From assembly GCA_001586195.1 (NCBI GenBank), contig CP014609.1, positions 1,152,001 through 1,216,000 of the forward strand: a DNA stretch of 64,000 nt. Reading direction: 5' to 3'. Source of the DNA: Solibacillus silvestris. GTDB lineage: Bacteria; Bacillota; Bacilli; Bacillales_A; Planococcaceae. The translations under genes were made by a program, and so were the position numbers. The notes beneath the pieces are model-generated. The model made no database searches and was not told the DNA's origin. It worked only from the letters and a program-made list of their open reading frames with translations. The first letter of the stretch is position 1. Each line of letters starts with the position of its first letter. Below are positions 1 through 14,098 of this stretch, one piece after another.

Positions 1-1
1 C

Positions 2-334
2 CCGTTTGCATGGAGCCGATTAATCGGGACAATCCCTACAGAGACAGAGGATGAAAAAGAGCGAGTGGAAAGACTGAAGCAGCTTTCGCCAGCTCATATT
101 GCGCCATTAGTTGCCTTTTTGGCATCGGATGAAGCTGCCGATATTTCCGGTCAAATATTTGGTGTACGAGGTAAGGAAATTATGGTGTTTTCTCAGCCGC
201 GTCCGATTCGCTCGGTATTCAATGCGAAAGGCTGGTCCGTTGATAGCTTAAGTGCAATCAAAGGCTCGCTTCAATCAAGTTTTACACCGCTTGAAGCTAG
301 TGCGCAAGTTTTCCCGTATGCCCCATTAGTGTAA
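2..334 (+). CDS. SDR-family dehydrogenase, C-terminal part (3-hydroxyacyl-CoA dehydrogenase type)
   Basis: Partial gene: the frame is open from the first bases of the window, so only the last 110 residues are seen. The segment LSPAHIAPLVAFLASDEAAD followed by ISGQIFGVRGKE is the usual C-terminal region of short-chain dehydrogenases, where the substrate lid and the end of the Rossmann fold lie. A tail of about 50 residues follows, ending in YAPLV, as in SDRs related to the (3R)-hydroxyacyl-CoA dehydrogenase unit of multifunctional enzyme 2. The catalytic Ser-Tyr-Lys lies outside the window. It ends 36 bases before the acyl-CoA dehydrogenase and is probably in the same operon. The family is fairly sure; the substrate is inferred from context. 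Confidence 0.75.
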   Translation, partial: PFAWSRLIGTIPTETEDEKERVERLKQLSPAHIAPLVAFLASDEAADISGQIFGVRGKEIMVFSQPRPIRSVFNAKGWSVDSLSAIKGSLQSSFTPLEASAQVFPYAPLV

Positions 335-370
335 TTGTTTGGACTGTTAAATTGGAAGGGAGAGAGAAAA

Positions 371-1543
371 ATGGACTTTCAGCTACCACCCGATTTAATC
401 GAAATGAAAAAAACAATTCGAGAGTTTATAGACAATGTGGTGGATCCACTTGCAGGAGAGATTGATCGTGAAGACCGAATACCGGACCATATTATGGAAA
501 AGTCAAAAGAAATGGGGTTGTTCGGTCTAAGTATCCCTGCAGAATACGGTGGTACAGGCATTGATATGGTCGGGAAATGTAGTCTTTTTGAAGAAATCGG
601 CCGTACATCGAACGGTTATATGACGGTAATCGGTGCACATACAGGAATTGGATCGGTCGGGATTGTGGAATTGGGGACGGAAGAGCAAAAGCAAAAATAT
701 TTACCCCGCATGGCTTCGGGTGAAATTATTGGTGCGTTTGCTTTAACTGAAACGACTGCGGGTTCTCATGCAGCAGCTTTAAAAACAACGGCCGTTCGTA
801 AAGGAGACAAATACATTCTGAATGGCGCGAAGCAGTATATTACAAATGCGCCGATTGCAGGGGTTTTTACGGTAATGGCTGTAACCGATCCAACTAAAGG
901 CGCAAAAGGAATTACTTCTTTCCTTGTGGATAAAAGCGCTCCTGGTTTAATCATTGGAAAAACAGAAGAAAAAATGGGGCTTCGCGGATCCCATTCTTCT
1001 GAGATTTTCTTCGAGGATTGTGAAGTGCCGGTCGAAAATGTGCTTGGTGTAGAAGGATTAGGTTATGTCAATGCCTTAACCATTTTGGCAAATGGTCGTG
1101 CTGGGCTCGCGGCGAGAAACTTAGGCTCAGCGCAAAAGCTTTTTGAGCTATCCGTCAAATATGCACATGAGCGTGAACAGTTCGGAAAGCCGATTTTTGA
1201 ACAGCAAATCATTCAACATTACTTGGCGGAAATGGCATTGGATATCGAAACATTGAGATCCTTTACGTACCGAGTGGCATGGATGGTGGACCAGGGGATG
1301 AATGTCATCAAAGAGGCAGCGATGGCAAAACTTTTAGGTTCGGAAATTTATAATCGCATAGCAGATAAAGCTGTGCAAATTCATGGTGGCCTCGGTTATA
1401 TGAAAGAGTTCCCTGTTGAAAGATATTATCGGGATGCACGTATTACAAAAATATATGAAGGCACATCTGAAATTCAAAAAAATATTATTGCTGCTCAAAT
1501 TCATAAAGAATATTTGAAGAAAGCACCGCCCGTATCAATCTAG
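371..1543 (+). CDS. acyl-CoA dehydrogenase
   Basis: FAD-dependent acyl-CoA dehydrogenase of 390 residues, the family's normal length, making the trans-2-enoyl-CoA double bond in beta-oxidation and passing electrons to ETF. The flavin and substrate signature AFALTETTAGSHAA is present. The C-terminal RDARITKIYEGTSEIQ carries the catalytic glutamate (about residue 363). The start is ATG 371, behind GGAAGGG; an in-frame TTG at 335 touches the previous stop and lacks a ribosome site. It lies in the catabolic cluster between an SDR and a MaoC pair. The chain length or branching of its substrate cannot be read from sequence. Confidence 0.93.
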   Translation: MDFQLPPDLIEMKKTIREFIDNVVDPLAGEIDREDRIPDHIMEKSKEMGLFGLSIPAEYGGTGIDMVGKCSLFEEIGRTSNGYMTVIGAHTGIGSVGIVELGTEEQKQKYLPRMASGEIIGAFALTETTAGSHAAALKTTAVRKGDKYILNGAKQYITNAPIAGVFTVMAVTDPTKGAKGITSFLVDKSAPGLIIGKTEEKMGLRGSHSSEIFFEDCEVPVENVLGVEGLGYVNALTILANGRAGLAARNLGSAQKLFELSVKYAHEREQFGKPIFEQQIIQHYLAEMALDIETLRSFTYRVAWMVDQGMNVIKEAAMAKLLGSEIYNRIADKAVQIHGGLGYMKEFPVERYYRDARITKIYEGTSEIQKNIIAAQIHKEYLKKAPPVSI

Positions 1544-1600
1544 TAATCTGATTTGGAATATCTGAAAATAACGACAAATTAAATTGGAGGAGGTAATTTT

Positions 1601-2008
1601 TTGAGTATAGGGCTTAAGGAAAAAGTTGGTCTGAAGTTAGAAGCCTACACCTTTCGAGTTGAAAAAGGAAAAATCAAAGAATTGGCCCAAGCGATTGGTG
1701 ATGTGAAAGAGGAGTATTTGAATGGTGAAGCGGTTCCACCTACATTCCCGACAGTAATCGACTTTTGGGGTGGAGGTGCTTCCTCGTCCGAGCTATTAAA
1801 TTTAAACATGAAAAAGGTTCTCCATGGCGAGCAGGAGTATGAATATTTCAGGGAAATCGTTCCCGATGAAGAAATTACAGTACATGGGGTCATTGAAAAA
1901 GCTTATTCAAAAGCGGCGATGAACTTCTTTATCATACGAAAAGATTATTTGGATAAACATGGTGAAACGGTTTTAATCAGTCGATCCACGATTATCGAAA
2001 GGCATTAG
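1601..2008 (+). CDS. MaoC-like dehydratase, N-terminal-type subunit (FAS1/HadA-like)
   Basis: A 135-residue single hot-dog domain resembling the N-terminal half of fungal FAS1-type dehydratases and the non-catalytic HadA/HadC subunit of actinobacterial hydratases (PTFPTVIDFWGGG, HGEQEYEYFREI, VHGVIEKAYSKAA). It lacks the GDxNPxH motif, which the next gene supplies 11 bases downstream, so the two probably form a heterodimeric enoyl-CoA hydratase. The start is TTG 1601, six bases or so after a strong GGAGGAGG. The assignment rests on domain likeness and the paired arrangement. Confidence 0.8.
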   Translation: MSIGLKEKVGLKLEAYTFRVEKGKIKELAQAIGDVKEEYLNGEAVPPTFPTVIDFWGGGASSSELLNLNMKKVLHGEQEYEYFREIVPDEEITVHGVIEKAYSKAAMNFFIIRKDYLDKHGETVLISRSTIIERH

Positions 2009-2019
2009 GGGGTTATTTT

Positions 2020-2400
2020 ATGGAAATAGGCCAGACACTGGAACCTTTACAGAAGGAAGAAATAACGCATACGCAGCTCGTTCGATATGCAGGTGCATCC
2101 GGAGACTTCAATCCGATCCATACCGTTGTCCCATTTGCAGAGGCAGCGGGTTTAGGTGGGGTCATTGCACATGGCATGTTGGTTATGGGCTTTGTCGGGC
2201 AGGCAATTGGGCAATGGTTTGAAGTAAAGAACCTGAAGAAATTCACAACGAGATTTAAAGCAATGACAAGACCAGGAGAAAGAATAACTATACAAGGCCG
2301 TGTTGTCGATGAAAATGAAACTTGCTGGATTTGTGAGGCAGAAGCAGTTAATGAATCTGCTGAAGTAAAGGTAAAAGCATTTTTTGAAATAAAAAAATAA
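2020..2400 (+). CDS. MaoC-type (R)-specific enoyl-CoA hydratase, catalytic subunit
   Basis: A 126-residue hot-dog protein with the hydratase-2 motif ASGDFNPIH (Asp29 and His34 as catalytic residues), followed by IAHGMLVMGFVG. This family hydrates trans-2-enoyl-CoA to (3R)-hydroxyacyl-CoA. It is separated from the FAS1-like partner by 11 bases with its own GGGGG ribosome site, an arrangement like the HadA-HadB pairs of actinobacteria. The (3R) product would suit an MFE2-type SDR such as the truncated gene at the window start. Family assignment is firm; the partner and stereochemistry are inferred from family knowledge. Confidence 0.85.
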   Translation: MEIGQTLEPLQKEEITHTQLVRYAGASGDFNPIHTVVPFAEAAGLGGVIAHGMLVMGFVGQAIGQWFEVKNLKKFTTRFKAMTRPGERITIQGRVVDENETCWICEAEAVNESAEVKVKAFFEIKK

Positions 2401-2534
2401 TTGCATCCAACGTTGTTCTAGAGAGATGACTCGTTACGTAAAATTTGTGATGTTGACTGCAATATTTATAGGAGAATCTCTTTTATCATTACGCAGTTAT
2501 GGAGTAACAAACAAAATTTAAGGAGGAGCTCGCA

Positions 2535-3419
2535 ATGAGAGAATACGTCACGACTAAACAGGAAATCAACAAAAATTCACTACCGTATAATTTGTATCAA
2601 AAGGCAAAAAAGTTCGGAATCTGGAATCCGGTAGATATCGACTTTACGCAAGATAAAGAAGATTGGAAGAAATTAAATGAAGAACAGCAATTAGAGGTGC
2701 TTACTCAGTTTGCTCAATTTATTGGCGGTGAAGAAGCGGTCACACAAGATATTTTACCGATGATTATGGCGGTTTCTAAAAAGGGATGGTTCGAAGAGGA
2801 ATCTTATTTAACAACTTTCCTTTTTGAAGAAGCGAAGCATGCTGAATTTTTCAGTCTGTTCCTGGAAGAAATCGGCGTAAAGGATGATTTGACTCATTTA
2901 CTGACACCAGGCTACCGGAAGCTATTTGATGAAACGCTGCCAGCAGTGATGGGCAGATTGATTGAAGATCAGTCACCGGAAGCAATGATAGATGCTGCGG
3001 TTACGTATAATATTTTTGCAGAAGGTGTTTTGGCTGAAACAGGTTACTGGTTCTTCCATGAAGCACTATCAAGCGCAAATTTGTTCCCGGGATTTATATC
3101 AGGAATTCGAAACGTTAAGCGTGACGAAGGACGTCATATAGGTTTTGGTACATTCCTCATTCAGCGCCTAATTAGTGAGAATCCTGAACTGGAGCTGTTT
3201 GAACGCGTACAGCAAAGACTGCAGGAGCTGTTACCGATTGCGATGATGTTAACAGAAGGAAAAGAAGACAAACAAGTAACAAGTCTTGGAATTGAACGAG
3301 GAAAATCGATGGAATTTGCCATGAAGCAATTACAGGCACGTCTGACAGTGCTTTCCCGAGCTAAAGGAAAGACGTTAGAAGAAATCTATAATACGGACAT
3401 TGCTTTAGAAGAAGTATAG
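2535..3419 (+). CDS. R2-like ligand-binding oxidase (R2lox)
   Basis: A 294-residue ferritin-like protein related to ribonucleotide reductase subunit R2 but of the R2lox type. In characterised R2lox the site binds a heterodinuclear Mn/Fe centre and a fatty-acid-like ligand and makes a Val-Tyr ether cross-link. The metal ligands are all visible: Glu66 (GGEEAVTQ), Glu99 and His102 (FEEAKHAEFF), Glu163 (FAEGVLAE), Glu198 and His201 (RDEGRHIGFG). The cross-link pair is Val69 and Tyr158. No RNR large subunit lies nearby; neighbours are alcohol, aldehyde and acyl-CoA enzymes. The substrate is unknown for the family, and a role as first oxidant here is inference. ATG 2535 follows AAGGAGG. Confidence 0.9.
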   Translation: MREYVTTKQEINKNSLPYNLYQKAKKFGIWNPVDIDFTQDKEDWKKLNEEQQLEVLTQFAQFIGGEEAVTQDILPMIMAVSKKGWFEEESYLTTFLFEEAKHAEFFSLFLEEIGVKDDLTHLLTPGYRKLFDETLPAVMGRLIEDQSPEAMIDAAVTYNIFAEGVLAETGYWFFHEALSSANLFPGFISGIRNVKRDEGRHIGFGTFLIQRLISENPELELFERVQQRLQELLPIAMMLTEGKEDKQVTSLGIERGKSMEFAMKQLQARLTVLSRAKGKTLEEIYNTDIALEEV

Positions 3420-3475
3420 GAAGTATTCATTCAGACGCTGTAATAAACAGTTTGCTATTTAGAGGGGGATGAAGG

Positions 3476-4993
3476 ATGACGACAGACGTACAAGTTAAGA
3501 TCTTTCCGCAGTTTATCAATGGTGAATGGACACCACCTGCTTCAGGTGAATTTTTTGATGTGATCAATCCGGCTACTTCAGAAGTCGTAGCGAAAGTTTC
3601 AAAAGGAAATCAGGACGATGTGAATAATGCGGTTCAAAATGCGAAAGAAGTTTTTGAATCAGGTGTCTGGTCAGGGAAAACGCAGGCAGAACGTGCACAG
3701 ATCATGATGCAATTTGCGGGGAAAATCAGACAGCATGCGCAGGAAATCATTTTCTTAGAAGGGATTAGTACGGGGGCGACACTACGTAAATTGGGTGGCG
3801 CAGATATTCGGCAGTTAGTGCTTTCTCTTACTCAAACAGCGGATTTATCGCTGAAATATGAGGCAGTAACAGCTCTTCCGGTCAACGAACAATTAGGTGC
3901 AAATCGTAGTCTGCTTGTTCGCGAACCACTCGGAGTAGTAGCGGCGATTACACCATTTAACTTCCCGCTAGTTTTAGCGATGTGGAAAATCGCACCGGCA
4001 ATTGCGATGGGGAACTCCATCATTATTAAGCCGGCTTCCAATACACCATTAGGTACATTGAAGCTTGCACAATTAGCAGTTGAAGCAGGTATTCCACCAG
4101 GGGTTATTAATGTCGTAACAGGTCCTGGAGCTGAAGTGGGCGATGCACTTGTTACACATCCAGATGTATCGAAAGTGGCGTTTACTGGATCTACAGAAGT
4201 AGGTAGAAAAATTATGGCACAAGCTGCAGGTACAGTTAAGAAAGTTACGCTTGAACTTGGAGGAAAGGCGCCTGCGATCGTGCTTCCTGATGTAAATCTC
4301 GAAGTGGCTATCCCAGGAATTCTGCTCGGCGTATTTTTCCATTCAGGACAAGTATGCGAAGCGAGTACACGTCTCATCGTACATGAATCCATTTATGACA
4401 TTGTCGTGCAACAACTAGTTGAGACAACGAAGAAAATAAAACTTGGACAGCCGCTTGATATGACGACTGGAATGGGACCGGTCATCTCGGAAACACAGAT
4501 GAATAAGATCCTCGACTATATTCAGTCTGGTATTGATGAGGGAGCAAAACTTGTATGTGGCGGTAAACGTGCAGCAGGTCCAGGGCTGGAGAACGGGTAT
4601 TTCATCGAGCCGACGATTTTCGCAGATGTGACGAACGATATGAAGATTGCGAGAGAAGAAATCTTTGGGCCGGTATTATGCGTGATTAAATATTCAACAG
4701 AAGAAGAAGCAATCGCCATCGCAAATGATACGGAATATGGATTAACAGGCGGTGTTTGGGGCCGTGATGTGACGAAAGCAAATGAAATTGCTACGAAAAT
4801 CAATGCCGGAACAATCTGGATCAATGACTGGCATATTTTCCGTACAGATGCGCCATTCGGTGGCTATAAGCAAAGTGGCTTAGGTCGTGAACAGGGAGCT
4901 CAAGTGTTTGATGACTACACAGAGCTTAAAAATATTTGCACTTCACTTACGACGGAAAATGCACAGCGCCCAGCTTTAGGACTAATCTTTTAA
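3476..4993 (+). CDS. aldehyde dehydrogenase, NAD(P)+-dependent
   Basis: A 505-residue aldehyde dehydrogenase of normal length, oxidising an aldehyde to a carboxylic acid. Visible residues are Asn162 (TPFNFP), the cofactor Lys185 (IIIKPAS), the general base Glu260 (LELGGKAP) and the nucleophile Cys294 (FHSGQVCEAS). The C-terminal FGGYKQSGLGREQG is also typical. It lies 24 bases before the iron-type alcohol dehydrogenase, suggesting an alcohol-to-acid relay ahead of the acyl-CoA ligase. ATG 3476 follows GGGGGATGAAGG. Specificity cannot be told from sequence. Confidence 0.94.
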   Translation: MTTDVQVKIFPQFINGEWTPPASGEFFDVINPATSEVVAKVSKGNQDDVNNAVQNAKEVFESGVWSGKTQAERAQIMMQFAGKIRQHAQEIIFLEGISTGATLRKLGGADIRQLVLSLTQTADLSLKYEAVTALPVNEQLGANRSLLVREPLGVVAAITPFNFPLVLAMWKIAPAIAMGNSIIIKPASNTPLGTLKLAQLAVEAGIPPGVINVVTGPGAEVGDALVTHPDVSKVAFTGSTEVGRKIMAQAAGTVKKVTLELGGKAPAIVLPDVNLEVAIPGILLGVFFHSGQVCEASTRLIVHESIYDIVVQQLVETTKKIKLGQPLDMTTGMGPVISETQMNKILDYIQSGIDEGAKLVCGGKRAAGPGLENGYFIEPTIFADVTNDMKIAREEIFGPVLCVIKYSTEEEAIAIANDTEYGLTGGVWGRDVTKANEIATKINAGTIWINDWHIFRTDAPFGGYKQSGLGREQGAQVFDDYTELKNICTSLTTENAQRPALGLIF

Positions 4994-5017
4994 TCGAAAA
5001 ATGAATGGAGAGATACG

Positions 5018-6220
5018 ATGAAAACGACTTCCTATTTTGAATTCACACATCGCCCTGAAATCCGAAGTGGTGCAGGTTCACATATTTTAGTACCCGATCT
5101 AATCCAAGGTTTAGGTGGAAAGCGCCCTGTTCTATTTTCTGATAAAGGATTGACGGATGCAGGCTTAACACAAAAAATCAAAAGCTTATTTGATATGGTT
5201 CCTGGCATAAAGCTGGCTGGTGTATTTGATGATATTCAGCAAGATGCGAAATCGAGCAATATTAACAGAGGCCTGAAATATTTTAAAGAATGCAATGGCG
5301 ACTCCATTATTGCAATTGGCGGCGGGAGTGTTATTGATACAGCTAAAACTGTCAAATGGGCTCTTTATAATGGTGTTAACGAAGTTGAGTATATTTTAAC
5401 AGGGAACGTTTTAGAAGTTTGGCCGGATGCAAAGCCATTCGGTATTCCGCATATTTCAATTCCTACTACAGCTGGAACGGGTTCTGAAATCTCCAGTATT
5501 TCAGTAGTATTCAATGAAATGCTGAACCTGAAGTGCAATTTAATGAATCCGTATTTGAGTTCTGATATTGCGGTTTTAGATCCTGACTTAACTGTTGGTT
5601 TACCGCCAAGAGTAACAGCGTTTACTGGTATGGATGCACTGACACATGCTGTAGAAGGATTTTTCTCAACAAAATCAACGAATTTTTCGGATGCATTTGC
5701 ACTGCATGCCGCAAAAATCATTGTCGAAAATTTGACTACGGCTGTGCGTGATGGGAAAAATGTGGCTGCACGTGCGAATATGCTACAAGCAAGTGCAATG
5801 GCTATTACAAGTTTCCAATCGGCGATGGCCAATATCCCAATCCACAATATAGCCCATACGTATGGCGCGAAATACGGCATTCCACATGGGCTGGCAAATG
5901 CAGTTCTCATGCCGAGTGTAATGAAAAATATGCCGAGCATGTATTTACCGAAAGTGAATGCATTTGCACCTGCACTGGGAATTATTCCAAACGCAGAAAA
6001 TCCGCAAGAAACATTGGAAGAGTGCATCAATGTAATTGTTGACTTAAGAAATACAGTCAATCTACCGGACAGCTTCGACGAGTTTAATATTGATGCGGCA
6101 GATATTCCGCAACTTGTCCCAGCCGTACAAAATGACCCGTCATCATTAAGCTTCCGTATTCCTGATGACATCATTGTAAACGTTTCTAAAGAAGTAATCA
6201 GTTCTAAAGTAAGTATTTAA
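5018..6220 (+). CDS. iron-containing alcohol dehydrogenase
   Basis: A 400-residue group III (iron-dependent) alcohol dehydrogenase. The nucleotide-binding loop IAIGGGSVIDTAKT is near residue 95. The metal-site region includes MDALTHAVEGFFS and NIAHTYGAKYGIPHGLANA, which supply the histidine ligands. Family members interconvert alcohols and aldehydes with NAD(P)H. Placed directly behind the aldehyde dehydrogenase, it probably makes that enzyme's substrate. The start is ATG 5018 after GGAGAG. Hydroxy-acid dehydrogenases of the same fold cannot be excluded. Confidence 0.92.
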   Translation: MKTTSYFEFTHRPEIRSGAGSHILVPDLIQGLGGKRPVLFSDKGLTDAGLTQKIKSLFDMVPGIKLAGVFDDIQQDAKSSNINRGLKYFKECNGDSIIAIGGGSVIDTAKTVKWALYNGVNEVEYILTGNVLEVWPDAKPFGIPHISIPTTAGTGSEISSISVVFNEMLNLKCNLMNPYLSSDIAVLDPDLTVGLPPRVTAFTGMDALTHAVEGFFSTKSTNFSDAFALHAAKIIVENLTTAVRDGKNVAARANMLQASAMAITSFQSAMANIPIHNIAHTYGAKYGIPHGLANAVLMPSVMKNMPSMYLPKVNAFAPALGIIPNAENPQETLEECINVIVDLRNTVNLPDSFDEFNIDAADIPQLVPAVQNDPSSLSFRIPDDIIVNVSKEVISSKVSI

Positions 6221-6238
6221 TTAAAAGCAATTGCTCTT

Positions 6239-6265
6239 CATCATGAAAGGGGGATCCTCCTTTCC
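6239..6265 (+). promoter_or_regulatory. short palindrome between the alcohol dehydrogenase and acyl-CoA ligase genes
   Basis: GAAAGGGGGATCCTCCTTTC is a near-perfect inverted repeat centred on GGATCC, with no clear T-tract beyond CTTTG. It may be a weak intercistronic terminator or a processing hairpin dividing the cluster. Only the hairpin is seen; its role is inferred. Confidence 0.35.
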
Positions 6266-6300
6266 TTTGATCGAAAATTTGAAAGTAGGAGGTTACTATT

Positions 6301-7824
6301 ATGAATATTGTTGAATTGCTTACTTCAACAACTTCCCGTTTGCCAGATCAACCTGTCATCCACTTCAAAAGAGCTCTACTTACTTATAAAGAATTACAAG
6401 ATAAAGTTTACAATATCGCTGCAGGATTGAAAGATCAGGGTGTCACAAAAGGTGCGAATGTGGCATTAATGATGACAAATCGTCCGGAATATATTATTAC
6501 GTATTTTGCTATTTTAGCAAATGGAGGTACGGTCGTTCCGATCAACCCTACATTTAAAGAGCAGGAAGTAACATATATCGTAAACGATTCGGAAGTTGAA
6601 TTGTTGATTATTGAAGATACGGCGAAACCGGTTATCGAAAACGCAATGGATCAATTCAAAACAGTCAAAACAATTATTAATTACGGTGATCATGTAGATG
6701 AACGATATTTATCATGGCATCAGCTAGATACATCTGCCTCTATTTCAGAAATTGTCCCCCTTCATGAATCTGACGTCGCACAAATCATCTATACTTCCGG
6801 TACAACCGGTAATCCGAAAGGCGCCATGATAACACACGGTAATTTAAACTGGATGGCGATTACAGCAGCCGTATACAACCAGTTAGTTCCAAGTGATCGT
6901 GTCCTATGTGTATTACCATTGTTCCATGCTTATGCAAAACTTCAAGGCTTCCTGGCACCGATAGCTCATGGATGTGCAATCTATTTGGAAGAACGTTTCC
7001 ACCCGGTTGAAACATTAAAAGCGATTGCCGAACATGAAATTACAATATTTTTAGGTGTGCCGACAATGTATGCCTTTTTTGCCCAGGTTCCTCATTTAGT
7101 AGAGCAACTGGACTTCTCAAAATTACGGACAGCTGGTTCAGGTGGGGCAAGTTTACCATCGGAGCTATTGCATAAGACGAATGAATCGTTCGGTGTCAGT
7201 ATTTCTGAAGGATATGGTTTAACCGAAAGTACGGTCATGCTGATGACAACACACCGAAGCTTACCGAAAAAAGTCAATTCAGTCGGGATGCCATTACCGG
7301 GAATCGATTTGAGACTGGTAGATCCGGAAGGCAATGAAGTAGCCAATCATGAAGTAGGCGAAATCTTATTTAGAGGGCCGAATATGATGAAGGGGTACTA
7401 CAAGAAGCCGGACGAGACCGCAAATACGATCAGGGACGGCTGGTTGTATACAGGAGACTTGGCGTACCGTGATGAAGAAGGCTATCACTTTATCGTTGAC
7501 CGTAAAAAGGACATCATTATTCGTGGCGGGTTTAATATTTACCCTCGTGAAATAGAGGAGCTGCTTTATCAGCACCCGGCTGTCGTAGAATGCTCTGTAA
7601 TCGGCAGACCGGACCCGGTATTCGGTGAAAAAACGGTAGCGTATGTCGTATCGAAAGACACCGAGCTAATAGAAGATGATGTTCGTGACTACTGCAAAGC
7701 GAAACTTGCCGAATACAAAGTGCCGGATTATATAATTTTCATTGAAGAAATTCCAAAGTCCGGAACAGGTAAAATTCTGAAGACCGCTTTGAAAGACTTA
7801 GACAAAAACGCACTGCCTAAATAA
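6301..7824 (+). CDS. acyl-CoA synthetase (long-chain fatty acid-CoA ligase family)
   Basis: A 507-residue ANL-superfamily adenylating enzyme that activates a carboxylic acid with ATP and CoA. Motifs in order: the AMP-binding loop IIYTSGTTGNPKGA (about residue 165), GYGLTES (about 305), YTGDLAYRDEEGY (about 380), the hinge DRKKDIIIRGGFNIYP and the C-terminal catalytic lysine region PKSGTGKILK. The length fits medium- and long-chain ligases of Bacillus (about 510-560). It links the acid made by the upstream dehydrogenases to the beta-oxidation genes around it. ATG 6301 follows AGGAGG. Confidence 0.93.
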   Translation: MNIVELLTSTTSRLPDQPVIHFKRALLTYKELQDKVYNIAAGLKDQGVTKGANVALMMTNRPEYIITYFAILANGGTVVPINPTFKEQEVTYIVNDSEVELLIIEDTAKPVIENAMDQFKTVKTIINYGDHVDERYLSWHQLDTSASISEIVPLHESDVAQIIYTSGTTGNPKGAMITHGNLNWMAITAAVYNQLVPSDRVLCVLPLFHAYAKLQGFLAPIAHGCAIYLEERFHPVETLKAIAEHEITIFLGVPTMYAFFAQVPHLVEQLDFSKLRTAGSGGASLPSELLHKTNESFGVSISEGYGLTESTVMLMTTHRSLPKKVNSVGMPLPGIDLRLVDPEGNEVANHEVGEILFRGPNMMKGYYKKPDETANTIRDGWLYTGDLAYRDEEGYHFIVDRKKDIIIRGGFNIYPREIEELLYQHPAVVECSVIGRPDPVFGEKTVAYVVSKDTELIEDDVRDYCKAKLAEYKVPDYIIFIEEIPKSGTGKILKTALKDLDKNALPK

Positions 7825-7965
7825 GAAGCGTCGGCTGGTCGGAGTTCATAAACTTCAGAACATGAACTAGAACGCAGATTATGTCGTTATGGACGAGCCG
7901 CTTATTGCGTAGCCCTAAATGACAAATAGGTTAATGATTGAACAGGAATAAGGAGGGGTTAATAG

Positions 7966-8727
7966 ATGAATTTTGACCAAAAGGCAATTATCGTGACTGG
8001 TGGAGGATCGGGTTTAGGTGAAGCAACTGCACGAAAGATTGCATCTGCTGGAGGCTATCCTATCATATTGGACTTAAACGAAGAAAAGGGGCAAGCGGTA
8101 GCCGATGAATTGAATGGTTTATTTTTTAAAACGAATGTTGTGAAGGAAGAAGACGTACAGGCAGCAATTAACGGTGCAGTAGAAAAATTCGGTTCGATCC
8201 AAGGTGTTGTGAATTGTGCAGGTCTTGGTACTTCAACTCGTGTAGTGGGCAGAAAAGGTGTATTCCCATTAGATGAATTTAATTATATTATCCAAGTTAA
8301 TTTAGTTGGGACATTTAATGTCATCCGTTTAGCTGCAGCTGCCATGATGACAAATGAACCGAATGAACACGGGGAACGCGGGGTTATTGTGAATACAGCT
8401 TCTGTCGCGGCGTTCGATGGACAAATCGGTCAGGCTGCCTATTCTGCATCCAAAAGTGGAATTGTAGGAATGACATTGCCAATCGCAAGGGACTTGGCTA
8501 GCTATGGCATCCGCGTTATGACAATTGCACCGGGAATTTTCGATACACCTTTAATGAACAGTGCGCCTCAAGCAGTTAAGGAAGCGTTAGGAAAACAAAT
8601 TCCATTCCCGTCCCGTTTAGGGGAAGCGGATGAATATGCCCATTTAGTAACGGCCATTTTTGAAAATCCAATGTTAAATGGTGAAACGATTCGACTCGAT
8701 GGAGCGATTCGCATGGCCCCAAGATAA
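7966..8727 (+). CDS. SDR-family 3-hydroxyacyl-CoA dehydrogenase (HSD10-like)
   Basis: A 253-residue classical short-chain dehydrogenase. It has the NAD-binding TGGGSGLG near residue 11, NCAG near residue 84, and the catalytic serine and YSASKSG in the [19 protein letters not shown] region. The pattern [14 protein letters not shown]...[13 protein letters not shown] resembles the type-2/HSD10 3-hydroxyacyl-CoA dehydrogenases, which act on (3S)-hydroxyacyl-CoA and branched or steroid substrates. The crotonase follows 12 bases later, so the pair probably does hydration and oxidation. ATG 7966 follows AGGAGGGG. HSD10 likeness is from recall of the family. Confidence 0.87.
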
Positions 8728-8739
8728 GGAGGATAACGG

Positions 8740-9534
8740 ATGAACCTTGAAACAATGACGATAGAGAAGCTTGACTACGGTGTACATGTTGTAACAATTA
8801 ATAATCCGCCTGCCAATACATTAAATGCAGGAATTCAGCAGGACTTAGTGCAACTAATTGAGGAAGTCGAAAAAAATCCGGCAATCCGGGCCATTGTGTT
8901 CAAATCGGCCAACCCGAAAATCTTTATTGCAGGTGCAGACCTGGGTACAATGGGCAGCTCTGATGAAAACGTGGATTTTGCTGAAAGTTCAAAACATGTG
9001 CAGGGTATTTTCAACCGGTTGGAAGCATTGCGGGTACCAACTATTGCAGCAATTAATGGTCATGCATTAGGCGGTGGCTGTGAATTCGTGCTTGCATGCG
9101 ACTTCCGTATAATGGGTGGCGGCACAATCGGATTAACGGAAGCATCATTGGGATTATTGCCTGGTGCTGGCGGTACACAGCGTATGACGAGATTAGTAGG
9201 CGGAGCAAAAGCGCGCGAATTAATGTATTTAAGCAAACGTTTAAAAACAGAGGAAGCAGCAGCAATCGGCTTAATTACAGAAGCGGCAGCTCCGGAAGAA
9301 GTGGAAGAAAAAGCAATCGCATTTGCAACATCGCTTGCTCAAAGTGCCATTGGAGCAATCGGCCTCATTAAAAAGAGTATTTTAGCGGCGGAAGAATTGC
9401 CGTTAGAACAAGGGTTATTAGTAGAACGGGAAGCCTTCGCGAAAACATTTACTACAGGGGAAGTAAATGAAGGCATCCGCGCGTTCTTTGAAAAGCGCCC
9501 TCCAAATTTTTTGAAGCCAGTCACAAATCAATAA
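8740..9534 (+). CDS. enoyl-CoA hydratase/isomerase (crotonase family)
   Basis: A 264-residue crotonase-fold protein. The first oxyanion-hole segment is IFIAGADLGTMG. The second, NGHALGGGCEFVLACDFR, carries one catalytic glutamate, and LTEASLGLLPGAGGTQR carries the other, so both acid residues of classical enoyl-CoA hydratase are present. It would make (3S)-hydroxyacyl-CoA, complementary to the MaoC pair. It lies 12 bases after the SDR, with AAGGAGG before ATG 8740, and is followed by a terminator-like hairpin. Confidence 0.93.
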   Translation: MNLETMTIEKLDYGVHVVTINNPPANTLNAGIQQDLVQLIEEVEKNPAIRAIVFKSANPKIFIAGADLGTMGSSDENVDFAESSKHVQGIFNRLEALRVPTIAAINGHALGGGCEFVLACDFRIMGGGTIGLTEASLGLLPGAGGTQRMTRLVGGAKARELMYLSKRLKTEEAAAIGLITEAAAPEEVEEKAIAFATSLAQSAIGAIGLIKKSILAAEELPLEQGLLVEREAFAKTFTTGEVNEGIRAFFEKRPPNFLKPVTNQ

Positions 9535-9548
9535 ATGGAACATTTGGG

Positions 9549-9586
9549 GGCCGTGTTGAAAGTTCAGCTTTCAGTACGGCCTTTAA
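9549..9586 (+). terminator. terminator-like hairpin after the crotonase gene
   Basis: GGCCGTGTTGAAAG and CTTTCAGTACGGCC form a 14-pair stem (two G-U pairs) with a TTCAG loop, followed by TTTAATTT. The T-tract is short, so it may be leaky and let some transcription reach the CoA-transferase gene. Confidence 0.65.
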
Positions 9587-9611
9587 TTTAATATGGAAGG
9601 ATGAAAGATTT

Positions 9612-10721
9612 ATGCTGTTAAAAGGATTAAAAGTGCTGGATTTCTCCACATTATTGCCAGGCCCGTTTGCAACGATGATGCTGGCGGATCTTGGAGCGGA
9701 AGTTGTACATGTTACCAAACCGGTAGAAGAAGGGAAGCAATGGGGGCCGAATGATTATTTGCAGCGTTCTAAAAAGTCGCTGGCGGTCGATTTGAAGTCT
9801 CCGGAAGTAGTCAAATCACTAAAGGAGCTTTTAAAGGAGCAGAAATATGATATTGTAGTTGAGCAGTTCCGGCCTGGCGTGATGGCGCGCCTTGGTCTCG
9901 ATTATGAAACGCTTAAAGCCATCAATCCTGGCTTAATTTACTGTTCCATTACAGGCTATGGTCAAACAGGTCTATATCGTGAGCGTGGCGGGCATGATAT
10001 TAATTATATATCCTTGTCGGGAGTGCAAGGCTACTCCGGCACGAAAGAAAATGGCCCGGCAAATATAGGTTTTCAAGTGGCCGACTTGGCAGGTGGATCA
10101 ATACATGCAGTGATCGGTATTTTATCGGCTGTCATTTATCGGGATAAAACGGGGGTAGGGCAGCATCTTGATATTAGTATGACGGACTGCGCATTAACGC
10201 TAAATGCCTTGTTTGCCCATGATTATTTAGCAGAAGGAAAGCCGCTGCCACGTGAAGAGCTGATCCTAAACGGCGGCTCGTTATATGGTTATTATGAAAC
10301 GCTGGATGGTCGGTACCTTTCTGTCGGCAGTCTTGAACCGAAATTCAGACAGCAGTTATGTCAGGCAATCGGTCATCCGGATTTACTTCCATTAGCGATG
10401 AGTAATAAACCGGAAGATATTGCAAAGATGAAAGAACAGCTGCAAAGTATTTTCCTGCAAAAGACGCTTGATGAATGGCACTCTATTTTCTTCGAAGTGG
10501 ATGCTTGTGTTGAACCGGTATTGACCTTTGAAGAAACGGTTGCACACCCGCTTTTCAAGGACCGGGATATGTTTGTGGAAATAGCAAAGCCGGATGGAAC
10601 AACCCAAAAACAAATTGCATGTCCGATTAAGTCCAATCTCTTCAAAGCTTCGTATGGGACAGTCGGAGTACATGCAGGAACACATAACAATGAAATTTTA
10701 GGAAGCCTGTTAAAGAAGTAG
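9612..10721 (+). CDS. CaiB/BaiF family CoA transferase (or 2-methylacyl-CoA racemase)
   Basis: A 369-residue family III CoA-transferase-fold protein. The N-terminal LLPGPFATMMLADLGAEV and the segment RGGHDINYISLSG, carrying the active-site aspartate, are typical. At this length both formyl/succinyl-CoA transferases and alpha-methylacyl-CoA racemases are possible. The racemase reading is attractive because it would prepare 2-methyl-branched acyl-CoAs for acyl-CoA dehydrogenase. It is the last gene of the catabolic cluster, behind a possible leaky terminator. ATG 9612 follows GGAAGGATG. Confidence 0.88.
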   Translation: MLLKGLKVLDFSTLLPGPFATMMLADLGAEVVHVTKPVEEGKQWGPNDYLQRSKKSLAVDLKSPEVVKSLKELLKEQKYDIVVEQFRPGVMARLGLDYETLKAINPGLIYCSITGYGQTGLYRERGGHDINYISLSGVQGYSGTKENGPANIGFQVADLAGGSIHAVIGILSAVIYRDKTGVGQHLDISMTDCALTLNALFAHDYLAEGKPLPREELILNGGSLYGYYETLDGRYLSVGSLEPKFRQQLCQAIGHPDLLPLAMSNKPEDIAKMKEQLQSIFLQKTLDEWHSIFFEVDACVEPVLTFEETVAHPLFKDRDMFVEIAKPDGTTQKQIACPIKSNLFKASYGTVGVHAGTHNNEILGSLLKK

Positions 10722-10925
10722 GGAATGCGATACGGATGAATACATGTATAAATATGTCTCCTAAACCGCATAACACCGGAGATCTGGGAGTGCAAGTGTA
10801 AAAAATATTAATTTTTATTGCGTTCATATTAAAAATACTTAATATTTATAAGAGTAATTACTGTTCTTTTTTTGAAAAATATTTTAAGATATAAACGAAT
10901 TACAAGATTGTTGAGCAGGTGAACT

Positions 10926-11687
10926 ATGAAAAACTTAAAACTTAGTGTTTTCCTTCTAACCGTTCCACTTTTACTGGCAGGTTGTGAGAGTGTTGAGAAC
11001 AAAGAAGGCTTCTTCTATTCAACATTTGTACGTCCGATGGATTGGACACTAAACACATTTGGTGAATTATTTAACGGCAGCTATGGTTTGGCTATTATTG
11101 CTATTATTTTAATTATTCGTCTCGTACTAATGCCGTTTATGCTTAAAACTTACCGCAGTCAAGCTACAATGAAAGTGAAAATGGATTTTGTCCGCCCGCA
11201 AATGGAGGATATCCAGACACGTTTAAAAGCAGCAAAAACTCCGGAAGAAAGAATGACAGTTCAGCAGGAAATGATGTCGCTCTACAAAGAACATAATATT
11301 AATCCGTTAAATATGGGCTGCCTGCCAGCGCTTATACAAATGCCGATTATTATGGGCTTATACTATGCGATTTTATATTCAGCTGAAATTAAAACACATT
11401 CATTCCTATGGTTTGACCTTGGCTCTACGGATATTTGGATGACTGCAATCGCAGGTGTCGTATATTTTGTACAAGCGAAAGTCTCGCTTCAAACCGTACC
11501 AGAAGCTCAGAAGAATCAAATGAAACTGATGATTTACGTATCGCCGATTATGATTGTCATTATTTCATTGTCTTCGATGGCTGCACTCCCACTGTACTGG
11601 GCAGTCGGAGGGTTATTCTTAATTGTCCAAACTTATATTGGACGCAAATTTTTCTCAAGCATCCCTGAAACTAAGGGAAATGAATAA
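10926..11687 (+). CDS. yidC: YidC/Oxa1 membrane protein insertase, lipoprotein-type paralogue
   Basis: A 253-residue YidC/OxaA-family insertase. It starts with a lipoprotein signal ending in LLLAGC (lipidated Cys about residue 19). After a short region come membrane segments around residues 50-70, 130-150, 170-190 and 205-235; PLNMGCLPALIQMPIIMGLY is typical of the conserved core. The gene is alone, not beside rnpA and rpmH, so it is probably the second paralogue (YqjG/YidC2-like) rather than SpoIIIJ. The charged C-terminal tail is short. ATG 10926 follows CAGGTG, and a terminator follows. Confidence 0.92.
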   Translation: MKNLKLSVFLLTVPLLLAGCESVENKEGFFYSTFVRPMDWTLNTFGELFNGSYGLAIIAIILIIRLVLMPFMLKTYRSQATMKVKMDFVRPQMEDIQTRLKAAKTPEERMTVQQEMMSLYKEHNINPLNMGCLPALIQMPIIMGLYYAILYSAEIKTHSFLWFDLGSTDIWMTAIAGVVYFVQAKVSLQTVPEAQKNQMKLMIYVSPIMIVIISLSSMAALPLYWAVGGLFLIVQTYIGRKFFSSIPETKGNE

Positions 11688-11723
11688 ATATAAGTTATGC
11701 CGCTGCTAAAGGCTTACTGAACT

Positions 11724-11758
11724 AAAACTACTGAGACAATGATTTCAGTAGTTTTTTT
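11724..11758 (+). terminator. rho-independent terminator after yidC
   Basis: AAAACTACTGA and TCAGTAGTTTT form a perfect 11-bp stem with a 10-base loop, followed by a T-run. Confidence 0.9.
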
Positions 11759-11786
11759 ATGCGTTGCGATCAGAGTGAATTTATTA

Positions 11787-11960
11787 TCTAATAAACTTGA
11801 GTATTGTTCTAATATATTTTAAAATCTTCTAATAAAAAACTTATTTTCTAATATAGTTGTCAGTTGTTCAAATAAGTGGTCAAGATTGTCGAATAAAGCG
11901 TCCGGTTGTTCTAATATGTCATAAGCATCTTCTAATAAACGTGTCAACTGTTCCAATAAA
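11787..11960. repeat. 21-bp periodic degenerate repeat (TCTAATAAA core)
   Basis: The motif T-C-T-A-A-T-A recurs at 11787, 11808, 11828, 11847, 11868 (TCAAATA), 11889 (TCGAATA), 11910, 11931 and 11952 (TCCAATA), so spacings are 21, 20, 19, 21, 21, 21, 21, 21. On the minus strand the core reads TTATTAGAA (Leu-Leu-Glu), and a 63-codon open stretch (12010 to 11819) shows heptads such as LLEQLTR, LLEDAYD, ILEQPDA, LFDNLDH, LFEQLTT. The 19/20-base spacings break the frame at the distal end. It could be a decayed coiled-coil gene or a non-coding repeat. No convincing ribosome site is seen. Confidence 0.6.
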
Positions 11961-12122
11961 GGTAATTCCAGATATTTGAAAGCCCCCTTAGTAACTGAAA
12001 AACTTAGCATACTGCCTATATTTCCGGTAATTTTCTAAAATATAGTCGCAATTGACTAATATCCACCTCAGATTATCTAATAACAACGATTATTTAGTAA
12101 TTAAATTTGCATACAATTTATA

Positions 12123-12152
12123 TTGACATTGATTATCCTTAATGGATATAAT
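12123..12152 (+). promoter_or_regulatory. promoter of the argS T-box leader
   Basis: TTGACA at 12123-12128 and TATAAT at 12147-12152 with 18 bases between, both perfect consensus boxes. The predicted RNA start near 12159 is just before the T-box leader. Confidence 0.75.
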
Positions 12153-12158
12153 TCAGTA

Positions 12159-12400
12159 AATTTAAATTCGATGAAAAAGACAGTAATTTACAATTTTTTT
12201 GGTAAGCGAGCTGGGGATTGGTGAGAGCCTGGTGCAAAATATGTAAATGAAGCGCACTTTGGAGAAGCAGTCTGAACATAAGTAGGACCTGCCGGGGAGT
12301 CACCTCGTTATTAATGGAAAGTGGTCACAATTTGTGGCAACTAGAGTGGTACCACGGGAATTTGAAGCTCTCGTCTCTATTTTTGAGACGGGGGCTTTTT
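12159..12400 (+). promoter_or_regulatory. T-box riboswitch, arginine-type, upstream of argS
   Basis: The leader carries the T-box sequence AGAGTGGTACCACGGG at 12343-12358. A terminator follows (AGCTCTCGTCTC at 12366-12377 pairing with GAGACGGGGGCT at 12385-12396, then TTTTT), competing with the antiterminator as in all T-boxes. Within stem I, GAAGCGCACTTTGG contains a CGC triplet at 12253-12255 followed by A, the expected specifier for tRNA-Arg. Uncharged tRNA-Arg should therefore switch on argS. The specifier choice is inferred from position and the downstream gene. Confidence 0.9.
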
Positions 12401-12418
12401 ATATTGGGAGGAGATAAT

Positions 12419-14098
12419 ATGTATAAAAAAATTGCATCAATTATTCAAGATGCTTTGCCGCACAAATTAATAACAAATACCGAAATTGAACAACTATTAG
12501 AAAGGCCAAAGTATCAGCATTTAGGGGATATAGCTTTCCCATGCTTTACGCTTGCCAAATCATTTAAGAAAGCCCCAGATATTATCGCTATAGAAATAGG
12601 CAACAATATTAAAAGTGATTTTATTCAGGAAGTTCATGTTGTTGGAGGCTATATAAATTTATTTTTAAATAAGTTACAGGTGACAAGAGACGTCATGGCC
12701 AAAATTATGATCGCTCATGAATTATATGGACAACAAGAAATACAGCAGAAGAATATCGTGATTGATTTTTCATCACCGAATATTGCAAAGCCATTCTCAA
12801 TGGGGCATCTTCGTTCTACGGTCATTGGAAATGCTCTTGCAAATATTGCAGAAAAGAACGGATACAATGTCATTCGGGTAAATCATCTTGGCGACTGGGG
12901 TACCCAATTCGGTAAACTGCTTGTGGCATTCCAATTGTGGGGAGAAAAAGAACGTGTTCAACAATCACCTATTGAAGAACTTTTGAAGCTATACGTGAAG
13001 TTCCATGATGAGGCAGAAACAAATAAATCCTTAAATGAGGAAGCAAGATCGGCATTTAAAGCGCTCGAAGATAATGATCCGCAGGCAATGGCATTATGGA
13101 CCTGGTTTAAAAGTGCCTCACTACAAGAATTTAAGCAAATTTACGAGCAGCTTCATATTCAGTTTGATACGTATGAAGGGGAAGCTTTTTATAATGAAAA
13201 AATGCAGTCTGTTGTTGATGAATTAAAAAAGAAGCAATTACTCACAGAGTCGGATGGTGCGAATGTTGTTGAGCTTGAAGATATGCCACCTTGTTTAATA
13301 ACAAAACAGGATGGTGCAACATTATATGCTACCCGTGATTTAGCCGCAGCTTTTTATAGACAGGCGCAATATGAACCATCCCAAGTTTTCTATGTGGTAG
13401 GGAATGAGCAAACACTGCATTTCAAACAAGTATTTCAAGTTATCTCAAAAATGGGCTATCCATGGTCGGGAAATCTGAAACATGTACCATTTGGAATGAT
13501 GTTGAAAGATGGGAAAAAGATGTCCACACGTAAAGGCAGAGTCATTTTATTGAAGGATGTATTAAAAGAAGCAGTGGAAACAGCGTCGAGAAATATAGAG
13601 GAAAAAAATCCGACGTTAAATAATAAACAGAATGTTGCTGACCAAGTAGGGATTGGCGCGGTAATATTTAATGATTTAAAGAACTTCCGCTTAAACGATA
13701 TTGAATTTTCATTACCTCAAATGTTGAATTTTGAAGGTGAAACAGGTCCTTATGTACAATACACGCACGCCCGGATCCATTCCATTTTAGAAAAAGCAAA
13801 GTATACATCAAGTAATGAAGTAACGGTGATGGAATTAGAGAATTCAGCTTGGGAGGTTATTAAGCTGCTGCAACAATATCCTCAAGTAATTACAGATAGT
13901 TTCGAACAAGTAGATCCTTCCTTAATTGCGAAATATGTATTGCAATTAGCGCGGATATTCAATAAATATTATGCAAATACAAAGATTTTAGTGGAAGATG
14001 AACAGCTAGAAAGTCGTTTACAGTTATGTTTTGCAGTAGCAACCGTTTTAAAGGATGGTTTGAAGTTACTGGGAATAAAATCACCGGAAAGTATGTAA
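12419..14098 (+). CDS. argS: arginyl-tRNA synthetase, T-box regulated
   Basis: A 559-residue class I arginyl-tRNA synthetase, about the usual Bacillus length. The HIGH-type motif appears as FSMGHLRST (about residue 133) and the KMSKS-type loop as KKMSTRKGR (about 364). N-terminal ArgRS additional-domain residues and the C-terminal DALR anticodon-binding domain (YVQYTHARIHSIL onward) are present. The start is ATG 12419 after GGGAGGAG; an in-frame upstream start at 12314 would lie inside the T-box structure. Because it stands alone under a T-box, it may be a second, stress-inducible copy, but the rest of the genome is not visible. Confidence 0.95.
   Translation: MYKKIASIIQDALPHKLITNTEIEQLLERPKYQHLGDIAFPCFTLAKSFKKAPDIIAIEIGNNIKSDFIQEVHVVGGYINLFLNKLQVTRDVMAKIMIAHELYGQQEIQQKNIVIDFSSPNIAKPFSMGHLRSTVIGNALANIAEKNGYNVIRVNHLGDWGTQFGKLLVAFQLWGEKERVQQSPIEELLKLYVKFHDEAETNKSLNEEARSAFKALEDNDPQAMALWTWFKSASLQEFKQIYEQLHIQFDTYEGEAFYNEKMQSVVDELKKKQLLTESDGANVVELEDMPPCLITKQDGATLYATRDLAAAFYRQAQYEPSQVFYVVGNEQTLHFKQVFQVISKMGYPWSGNLKHVPFGMMLKDGKKMSTRKGRVILLKDVLKEAVETASRNIEEKNPTLNNKQNVADQVGIGAVIFNDLKNFRLNDIEFSLPQMLNFEGETGPYVQYTHARIHSILEKAKYTSSNEVTVMELENSAWEVIKLLQQYPQVITDSFEQVDPSLIAKYVLQLARIFNKYYANTKILVEDEQLESRLQLCFAVATVLKDGLKLLGIKSPESM

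Follow-up and report, generated by a model that had tools for sequence, protein, structure and literature searches.

What does an R2-like ligand-binding oxidase (R2lox) oxidise when its gene stands among genes that could turn an alcohol into an acyl-CoA? The question is raised by a stretch of 64,000 nucleotides of the Solibacillus silvestris genome (3.99 Mb, one contig; positions 1152001-1216000), hereafter called the window, in which the R2lox gene (2535-3419, + strand) lies within an operon. In 2014 a review (PMC4118035) listed the physiological substrate of R2lox as unknown. According to a 2024 paper (PMC10867098), lysate of Escherichia coli making GkR2loxI lowers C10-C22 alkanes, and the same alcohol-to-acyl-CoA logic was proposed there for the GK2769-GK2782 cluster of Geobacillus kaustophilus. 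The idea that R2lox makes an alcohol that is passed on to acyl-CoA, which an earlier note on this DNA had put forward while treating the substrate as not known, is thus already known: for GkR2loxI, a role as alkane hydroxylase has been published together with a cluster of similar make-up.

The Solibacillus operon may encode a self-contained catabolism of a hydrocarbon or lipid tail with methyl branches, isoprenoid-like or of the iso type, in which R2lox makes the alcohol, a reading that we hold tentatively and at somewhat less than an even chance; its narrower part, that R2lox makes the alcohol for the operon pathway, is probable on the gene content. In the literature searched, R2lox together with both an aldehyde dehydrogenase (ALDH) and an alcohol dehydrogenase (ADH) was found in PMC10867098 only, and the racemase-bearing R2lox operon of MFE-2 type, its all-or-nothing distribution and the pairing of ADH and ALDH across clades were not found there (the 2009 and 2022 R2lox structure papers lie outside this search).

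The predicted racemase and the beta-oxidation enzymes

The last gene of the operon encodes a CaiB-family protein (9612-10721, +), and whether it is a transferase or a racemase matters because the answer says most about the substrate. The earlier note had left the choice open; the residues speak for the racemase, and the CoA-transferase was rejected on them. The seven best solved matches of the protein are all racemase entries (175-180 bits), with MCR as the best, and its motif GHDINY, together with an Asp and a Glu, aligns with the catalytic residues of MCR, which we take to be H126, D127, D156 and E241 (the MCR entry 8rp5 carries Ala at the catalytic Glu). These residues are present in 7/7 Solibacillus operon copies, and the three of the four CaiB paralogues of the same genome that were read all lack the racemase His, the fourth (3893595-3894695) lying outside the comparison. 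The operon CaiB gene is a predicted alpha-methylacyl-CoA racemase, an assignment that is new here.

The first short-chain dehydrogenase/reductase (SDR) gene, of which the C-terminal part lies at 2-334 (+) and the first two thirds lie outside the window to the left (whole gene L002:17415-18335), is nearest to the (3R)-hydroxyacyl-CoA dehydrogenase part of MFE-2, with 2et6 and then 1zbq as best solved matches. The split hydratase is hydratase-2-like and consists of two hot-dog halves, one resembling FAS1_DH_region and the N-terminal hydratase-2 of MFE-2 (1601-2008, +; PF13452/PF22622) and one MaoC-like (2020-2400, +; PF01575), so that a two-half hydratase-2 and an MFE-2-type SDR, the two marks of an MFE-2-type back end, were both found. 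The second SDR (7966-8727, +) is nearest to HSD10-type 3-hydroxyacyl-CoA dehydrogenases and is followed by a crotonase-family enoyl-CoA hydratase (8740-9534, +); there are thus three hydratase-family genes, not the two counted earlier.

A ligase, a racemase, a hydratase-2, a (3R)-dehydrogenase and a thiolase make up the peroxisomal set for methyl-branched chains, and the peroxisomal beta-oxidation of methyl-branched and bile-acid chains proceeds by ligase, AMACR, oxidase, MFE-2 and SCPx. The operon shares the ligase, the racemase, the hydratase-2 with its (3R)-dehydrogenase and the thiolase with that pathway; it differs in that its genes are separate, that acyl-CoA dehydrogenases take the place of the oxidases, and that the operon itself includes a front end that activates O2. 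The occurrence of a racemase with MFE-2-type and HSD10-type enzymes therefore suggests a methyl-branched substrate. Bacterial racemase mutants are reported to lose growth on methyl-branched isoprenoids (PMC8538451, citing Arenskoetter 2008). The genome G160, which has no R2lox, contains a similar block, its racemase recognised by the residues, together with MFS-transporter-like and HMG-CoA-lyase-like genes (L184; both named by eye); the back end therefore also occurs with another front end.

In the pathway that we propose from gene families and gene order, R2lox would draw on O2 and its Mn/Fe site to insert a hydroxyl group into a C-H bond of a terminal methyl, giving a primary alcohol that the iron-type ADH (5018-6220, +) and the ALDH (3476-4993, +) would oxidise to the acid. 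An AMP-forming acyl-CoA ligase (6301-7824, +; NF004837, 485.4 against a cut-off of 476) would then form the 2-methylacyl-CoA, which would arise in both hands when one methyl of the branched end is oxidised, and the racemase, judged by its residues, would convert it to the hand accepted by the acyl-CoA dehydrogenases. Two branches could follow, one through the hydratase-2 pair and the MFE-2-type dehydrogenase and the other through the crotonase and the HSD10-type dehydrogenase, and the two thiolases would cleave the chain to acetyl-CoA and propionyl-CoA. The latter could be used, because methylmalonyl-CoA mutase genes are present in the genome; one PrpD-family gene is found as well. Electrons for R2lox would come from a partner encoded elsewhere, and the electron-transfer flavoprotein (ETF) for the acyl-CoA dehydrogenases would likewise be supplied from elsewhere in the genome.

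The eleven genes at 2-10721 that the earlier note had described as co-directional are indeed all on the same strand (+), and the cluster is larger than stated there: the full operon comprises 15 genes and spans window -5558 to 10721, its intergenic gaps being 11-141 bp. To the left of the window lie, on the same strand and in this order, thiolase 1 (L002:12443-13561, window -5558 to -4440), acyl-CoA dehydrogenase 2, thiolase 2 (L002:14893-16086, window -3108 to -1915), an acetyl-CoA hydrolase/transferase-family gene and the start of the first SDR. The suspicion that a thiolase missing from the window might lie there was therefore right, and a pathway without thiolase is rejected. The search for upstream ETF genes suggested at the same time gave none in the operon, with two ETF pairs elsewhere in the genome, and no ferredoxin or reductase gene was recognised within the operon. 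Acyl-CoA dehydrogenase 1 lies at 371-1543 (+; alternative ORF start at 335), and after R2lox the ALDH precedes the ADH, the reverse of the order first given. Taken kb by kb, G+C fractions of 0.39-0.45 prevail in the operon, compared with a window average of 0.38.

A stem-loop lies between the hydratase and racemase genes (9544-9586, +) in all 7 operon copies, with about -19 to -25 kcal/mol across them and a weak U-tract in the window copy; the structure might act in attenuation or processing of the transcript. A palindrome of the type TGTTATT-N5-(C/A)ATAACA (L002:12200-12230), upstream of thiolase 1, is common to 5/7 copies and weaker in L004 and L005, and is a possible candidate operator. Sigma-70-like sites were no more numerous than expected by chance in window 1-12400 (30 against 29.1 +/- 5.3 in shuffles), and those to the left of the window (24 against 18.3 +/- 3.7) were rejected as a signal.

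R2lox and its neighbours across the class

The window R2lox matches the curated model NF006200 (261.9 against a cut-off of 194), the one of five R2lox models that it passed; it falls under the cut-offs of the other four, for example NF006202 (272.2 against 315), and the solved structures closest to it are those of R2lox proteins. All eight signature residues, namely the metal ligands E69, E102, H105, E167, E202 and H205 and the cross-link pair V72-Y162 (GkR2loxI numbering, PMC10867098), are present. They are complete in 128/130 aligned sequences, the window and the GkR2loxI stretch included, and the remaining two are gapped there; the cavity tyrosine Y175 (PMC4118035) is present in the window R2lox and in 126/130. 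Among 135 R2lox ORFs, 5 under 200 aa were left unaligned and 128 entered a quick tree built with no mixture model. In a careful tree of 41 rows picked by hand, the window falls in a 17-row clade (95/93) and the GkR2loxI type in a 6-row clade (99/98), but an approximately unbiased (AU) test leaves a union of Solibacillus R2lox with the latter unrejected (p 0.268). The R2lox of locus L142 is 99.5% identical to the GkR2loxI stretch and 39.5% to the window R2lox. The L142 genome (G486) also holds a window-type R2lox in locus L100, with the order acyl-CoA dehydrogenase 1, R2lox, ALDH, Fe-type ADH, and Bacillus sp. EB600 (L008) has three R2lox genes in about 7 kb, flanking an ALDH and Fe-type ADH pair.

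Neighbourhoods of up to 19.5-20 kb around R2lox were taken from 100 regions and, with earlier loci, 101 R2lox genes were counted. They belong to four clades: W with the window (50), K with GkR2loxI (6), U (27) and II (18); the 25/128 tree sequences outside these clades were excluded from the counts. Locus genes were mechanical ORFs labelled by phmmer with the window proteins, a procedure by which distant families may be missed, and 20 windows at a fixed place in 20 of the same genomes served as controls. A scan of genome contigs with short patterns returned 26 loci. Within 6 kb of R2lox, an ALDH was found in 50/101 cases, any ADH in 60/101 and both in 49/101, the last from 25/43 genus labels (named and coded genera could not be matched, and Solibacillus is counted twice); the control windows had an ALDH in 1/20, an ADH in 1/20 and both in 0/20 (Fisher p 1.2e-4 to 3.8e-6, the loci not being independent). 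The ADH was of the Fe type in 27/50 loci of clade W and 17/18 of clade II and of the MDR type in 11/27 of clade U, and clade K had 2 of each in 6. Unrelated ADH families in the same position point to alcohol oxidation as a common requirement and not to the inheritance of one operon, and the recurrent pairing supports the route from R2lox through an alcohol to acyl-CoA.

Wider parts of the operon recur as well. The SDR, acyl-CoA dehydrogenase and two MaoC-type halves follow R2lox in the window gene order in L006, L092 and L093, and a variant order is found near R2lox in L090 and L099. The shorter order of R2lox, ALDH and ADH recurs in other families of the class. The check for recurrence in other Planococcaceae that the earlier note had proposed mostly failed: R2lox is present in 8/261 Planococcaceae genomes and the whole cluster was found in Solibacillus only (the order-level search took in the same 261 genomes as the family-level search). 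In the sample of the class as a whole, R2lox is present in 78/398 genomes.

The GkR2loxI-type cluster (L142) resembles the operon in having R2lox with an ALDH, an ADH, a ligase, acyl-CoA dehydrogenases, a hydratase, an SDR and a thiolase. It differs in that its ADH is of the MDR type instead of the Fe type, in its SCP2-like and UbiB-like genes and in an R2lox from the other clade of the careful tree, and no racemase or MaoC match was obtained within 6 kb of the loci of that clade. For GkR2loxII, encoded on pHTA426 with an ADH, an ALDH and a ligase, an aromatic substrate was suspected and left open in PMC10867098. That cluster (GKP25-GKP31; L037) shares R2lox, a Fe-type ADH, an ALDH and a CoA ligase with the operon, and is set apart by a UbiD-family decarboxylase, a hydroxyarylic acid decarboxylase subunit B, an MFS transporter and molybdenum-hydroxylase genes and by an R2lox 29.3% identical to that of the window. 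A UbiD-family decarboxylase lies within 6 kb of R2lox in 15/18 clade II loci (L037, L146-L161), 17 of the 18 having a Fe-type ADH and 15 an ALDH, an arrangement that suggests aromatic substrates for clade II.

Of 34 plasmid records with a match, 5 were examined. At the four actinobacterial plasmid loci, an NDMA-dependent ADH is found in 4/4, an ALDH in 3/4 (about 8 kb off in L194) and a CoA ligase in 3/4. The Rhodococcus plasmid loci among them (L192, L193 and L194) are like the operon in combining R2lox with an ADH and an ALDH, and with a CoA ligase in L192 and L193; they differ in the NDMA-dependent type of the ADH, in a ferredoxin and a FAD-dependent oxidoreductase beside R2lox (3/4 of the actinobacterial loci), and in having no racemase annotated in the stretches examined. 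The ferredoxin and the oxidoreductase are a possible electron chain for R2lox.

Three further neighbours were observed. A UbiB/ABC1-type atypical kinase lies within 3 genes of R2lox in 17/27 clade U loci, for example L121-L138 (one representative scanned, L129), and an SCP2-like protein at the same distance in 10/27 loci of that clade. A LuxR/GerE-type regulator, mostly on the opposite strand, lies within 3 genes of R2lox in 19/50 clade W loci, for example at L006:7691-8422 (one representative scanned); the Solibacillus operon is without it.

Distribution and conservation in Solibacillus

Within the genus the operon is an all-or-nothing unit. The 10.7 kb block has a full or nearly full-length match in 7/16 genus genomes, the host included, with 82-90% identity in the other six, and among the matches listed the remaining 9/16 have pieces only, the longest being a 1.5 kb SDR and acyl-CoA dehydrogenase stretch (74%) in G160. 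The presence of R2lox splits the genus in the same way; the R2lox proteins of Solibacillus merdavium and S. faecavium share 92-93% identity with that of the window.

An empty site is found in G163, a genome without R2lox, in which the YidC-like gene, the right neighbour of the operon in the host genome (G000), comes straight after an LTA-synthase-like gene; the flank labels YidC-like, LTA-synthase-like and ArgS-like were, like those in L184, given by eye with no family search behind them. On the left the alignment of the flanks runs as far as L002:12007, and on the right it resumes at window 10804, so that about 16.8 kb present in G000 is absent in G163, where about 107 unaligned bases take its place. 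The boundaries of the absent block fall at L002:12007/12008 (about window -5993) and at 10803/10804 (no strand). The YidC-like gene also stands just past the block in G154, G155, G158 and G159. In G152 and G153, the best YidC-like match is on another contig and different genes follow the block (L004, L005), which therefore is located at more than one site, being elsewhere in 2/7 carriers. An ArgS-like gene between the YidC-like gene and the next (window 12314-14098) has no counterpart at this position in G163 (L179), a second presence/absence difference.

The host genes were compared with the six other copies, and dN/dS was 0.024-0.131 for 14/15 genes, ratios that are rough because several dS values are near or above 1. 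R2lox (0.028-0.045), the ALDH (0.027-0.037) and the ADH (0.027-0.050) all gave low ratios, and the R2lox value speaks for strong conservation. The exception is the CoA-transferase-family gene (0.087-0.268), whose copy in L067 is a fragment. In the same locus of G154 the ligase is split into two ORFs, at which the block match is broken; the operon of G154 may be decaying, or the assembly may contain errors.

Alternative substrates and significance

Of the alternatives to a methyl-branched substrate, the one that survives best, if still unlikely, is that the same pathway acts on an n-alkane or a fatty compound with a straight chain, the substrate type claimed for GkR2loxI, and that the racemase and the HSD10-type enzyme are passengers or serve other substrates. 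The alkane loss with GkR2loxI lysate and the similar cluster (PMC10867098) favour it, as do the lack of a racemase beside the other R2lox genes examined and the AU test, which is compatible with a grouping of Solibacillus R2lox in the GkR2loxI clade (p 0.268). It has to contend with a racemase that retains its residues in every carrier and with the low identity and separate starred clades of the two R2lox types. The alkane case for GkR2loxI is itself not closed, because the E202A/H205A metal-site mutant differed by only 11-21 percentage points in the published assay (PMC10867098).

Several observations weigh against the methyl-branched reading and bear on the substrate first. The lead of the racemase over formyl-CoA transferase is modest (180 against 154 bits), the racemase is under weaker constraint than R2lox (dN/dS 0.073-0.105), and the stem-loop separates its gene from the hydratase gene. 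The CaiB genes near R2lox outside the genus (L008, L072, L139) lack the racemase His, so that a racemase as a general R2lox partner is rejected. The methyl-branched step is an inference, because a racemase beside R2lox was found in Solibacillus only. The others bear on R2lox as the source of the alcohol: 52/101 R2lox loci are without the ADH and ALDH pair, and neither the ligase (31/101 against 2/20 controls, p 0.096) nor the acyl-CoA dehydrogenase (20/101 against 1/20, p 0.19) is significantly enriched, for which reason both were rejected as general R2lox neighbours. No ferredoxin match was obtained at Bacilli R2lox loci at E 1e-4 with the two Rhodococcus proteins as the only queries, and reductase matches were obtained at two such loci (L100 and L075), 5.5 and 7.9 kb away; a dedicated ferredoxin or reductase near Bacilli R2lox is thus rejected. 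One P450 and one fatty-acid-desaturase-family gene (assigned to family level) are encoded elsewhere in the genome, of which R2lox is therefore not the sole candidate oxygenase.

The loci lacking the pair and the want of a recognised electron donor near Bacilli R2lox would also suit the view, to which we give a slightly smaller chance than to the n-alkane, that R2lox is not the source of the pathway substrate and instead acts as a desaturase (a role once proposed; PMC4118035), turns over only once, serves as a sensor, or stands beside a fatty-acid operon by chance. It fits poorly with the enrichment of ADH and ALDH in which unrelated ADH families take part, with the all-or-nothing block, and with the ferredoxin and FAD-dependent oxidoreductase at three of the four actinobacterial plasmid loci.

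A sterol, hopanoid or bile acid whose branched side chain is shortened, R2lox replacing a side-chain P450, is improbable as the substrate: the operon enzymes resemble the bile-acid side-chain set and the species names of two carriers hint at bird faeces, but the operon has no ring-degradation genes (the search for these covered the operon), and thiolase 1 is under the cut-off of the steroid thiolase model (381.6 against 515). Equally improbable is the oxidation of an endogenous membrane lipid or fatty acid in repair, remodelling or omega-oxidation of iso and anteiso chains, with the pathway recycling the product, for although such chains are abundant in Bacilli membranes and fatty acids are bound in R2lox proteins made in E. 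coli (PMC10867098), presence in 7/16 genus and 8/261 family genomes fits poorly with a housekeeping role.

The methyl-branched reading extends to the family of proteins as a more doubtful proposal, that R2lox may be a general class of Mn/Fe terminal hydroxylases, each clade wired to a back end of its own, for methyl-branched lipids in Solibacillus, for n-alkane-like chains with GkR2loxI, and for aromatics with UbiD decarboxylases in clade II, the Solibacillus enzyme taking the role that certain P450s or AlmA have for methyl-branched chains. The physiological substrate of R2lox so far rests on one lysate study claiming alkanes (PMC10867098). The recurrent pairing of R2lox with unrelated ADHs supports the formation of a primary alcohol independently of any single operon, and the operon context would predict a particular class of R2lox substrate, methyl-branched chains. 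One genus offers carriers, non-carriers and an empty site, which puts the claim within direct reach of growth tests and gene deletions.

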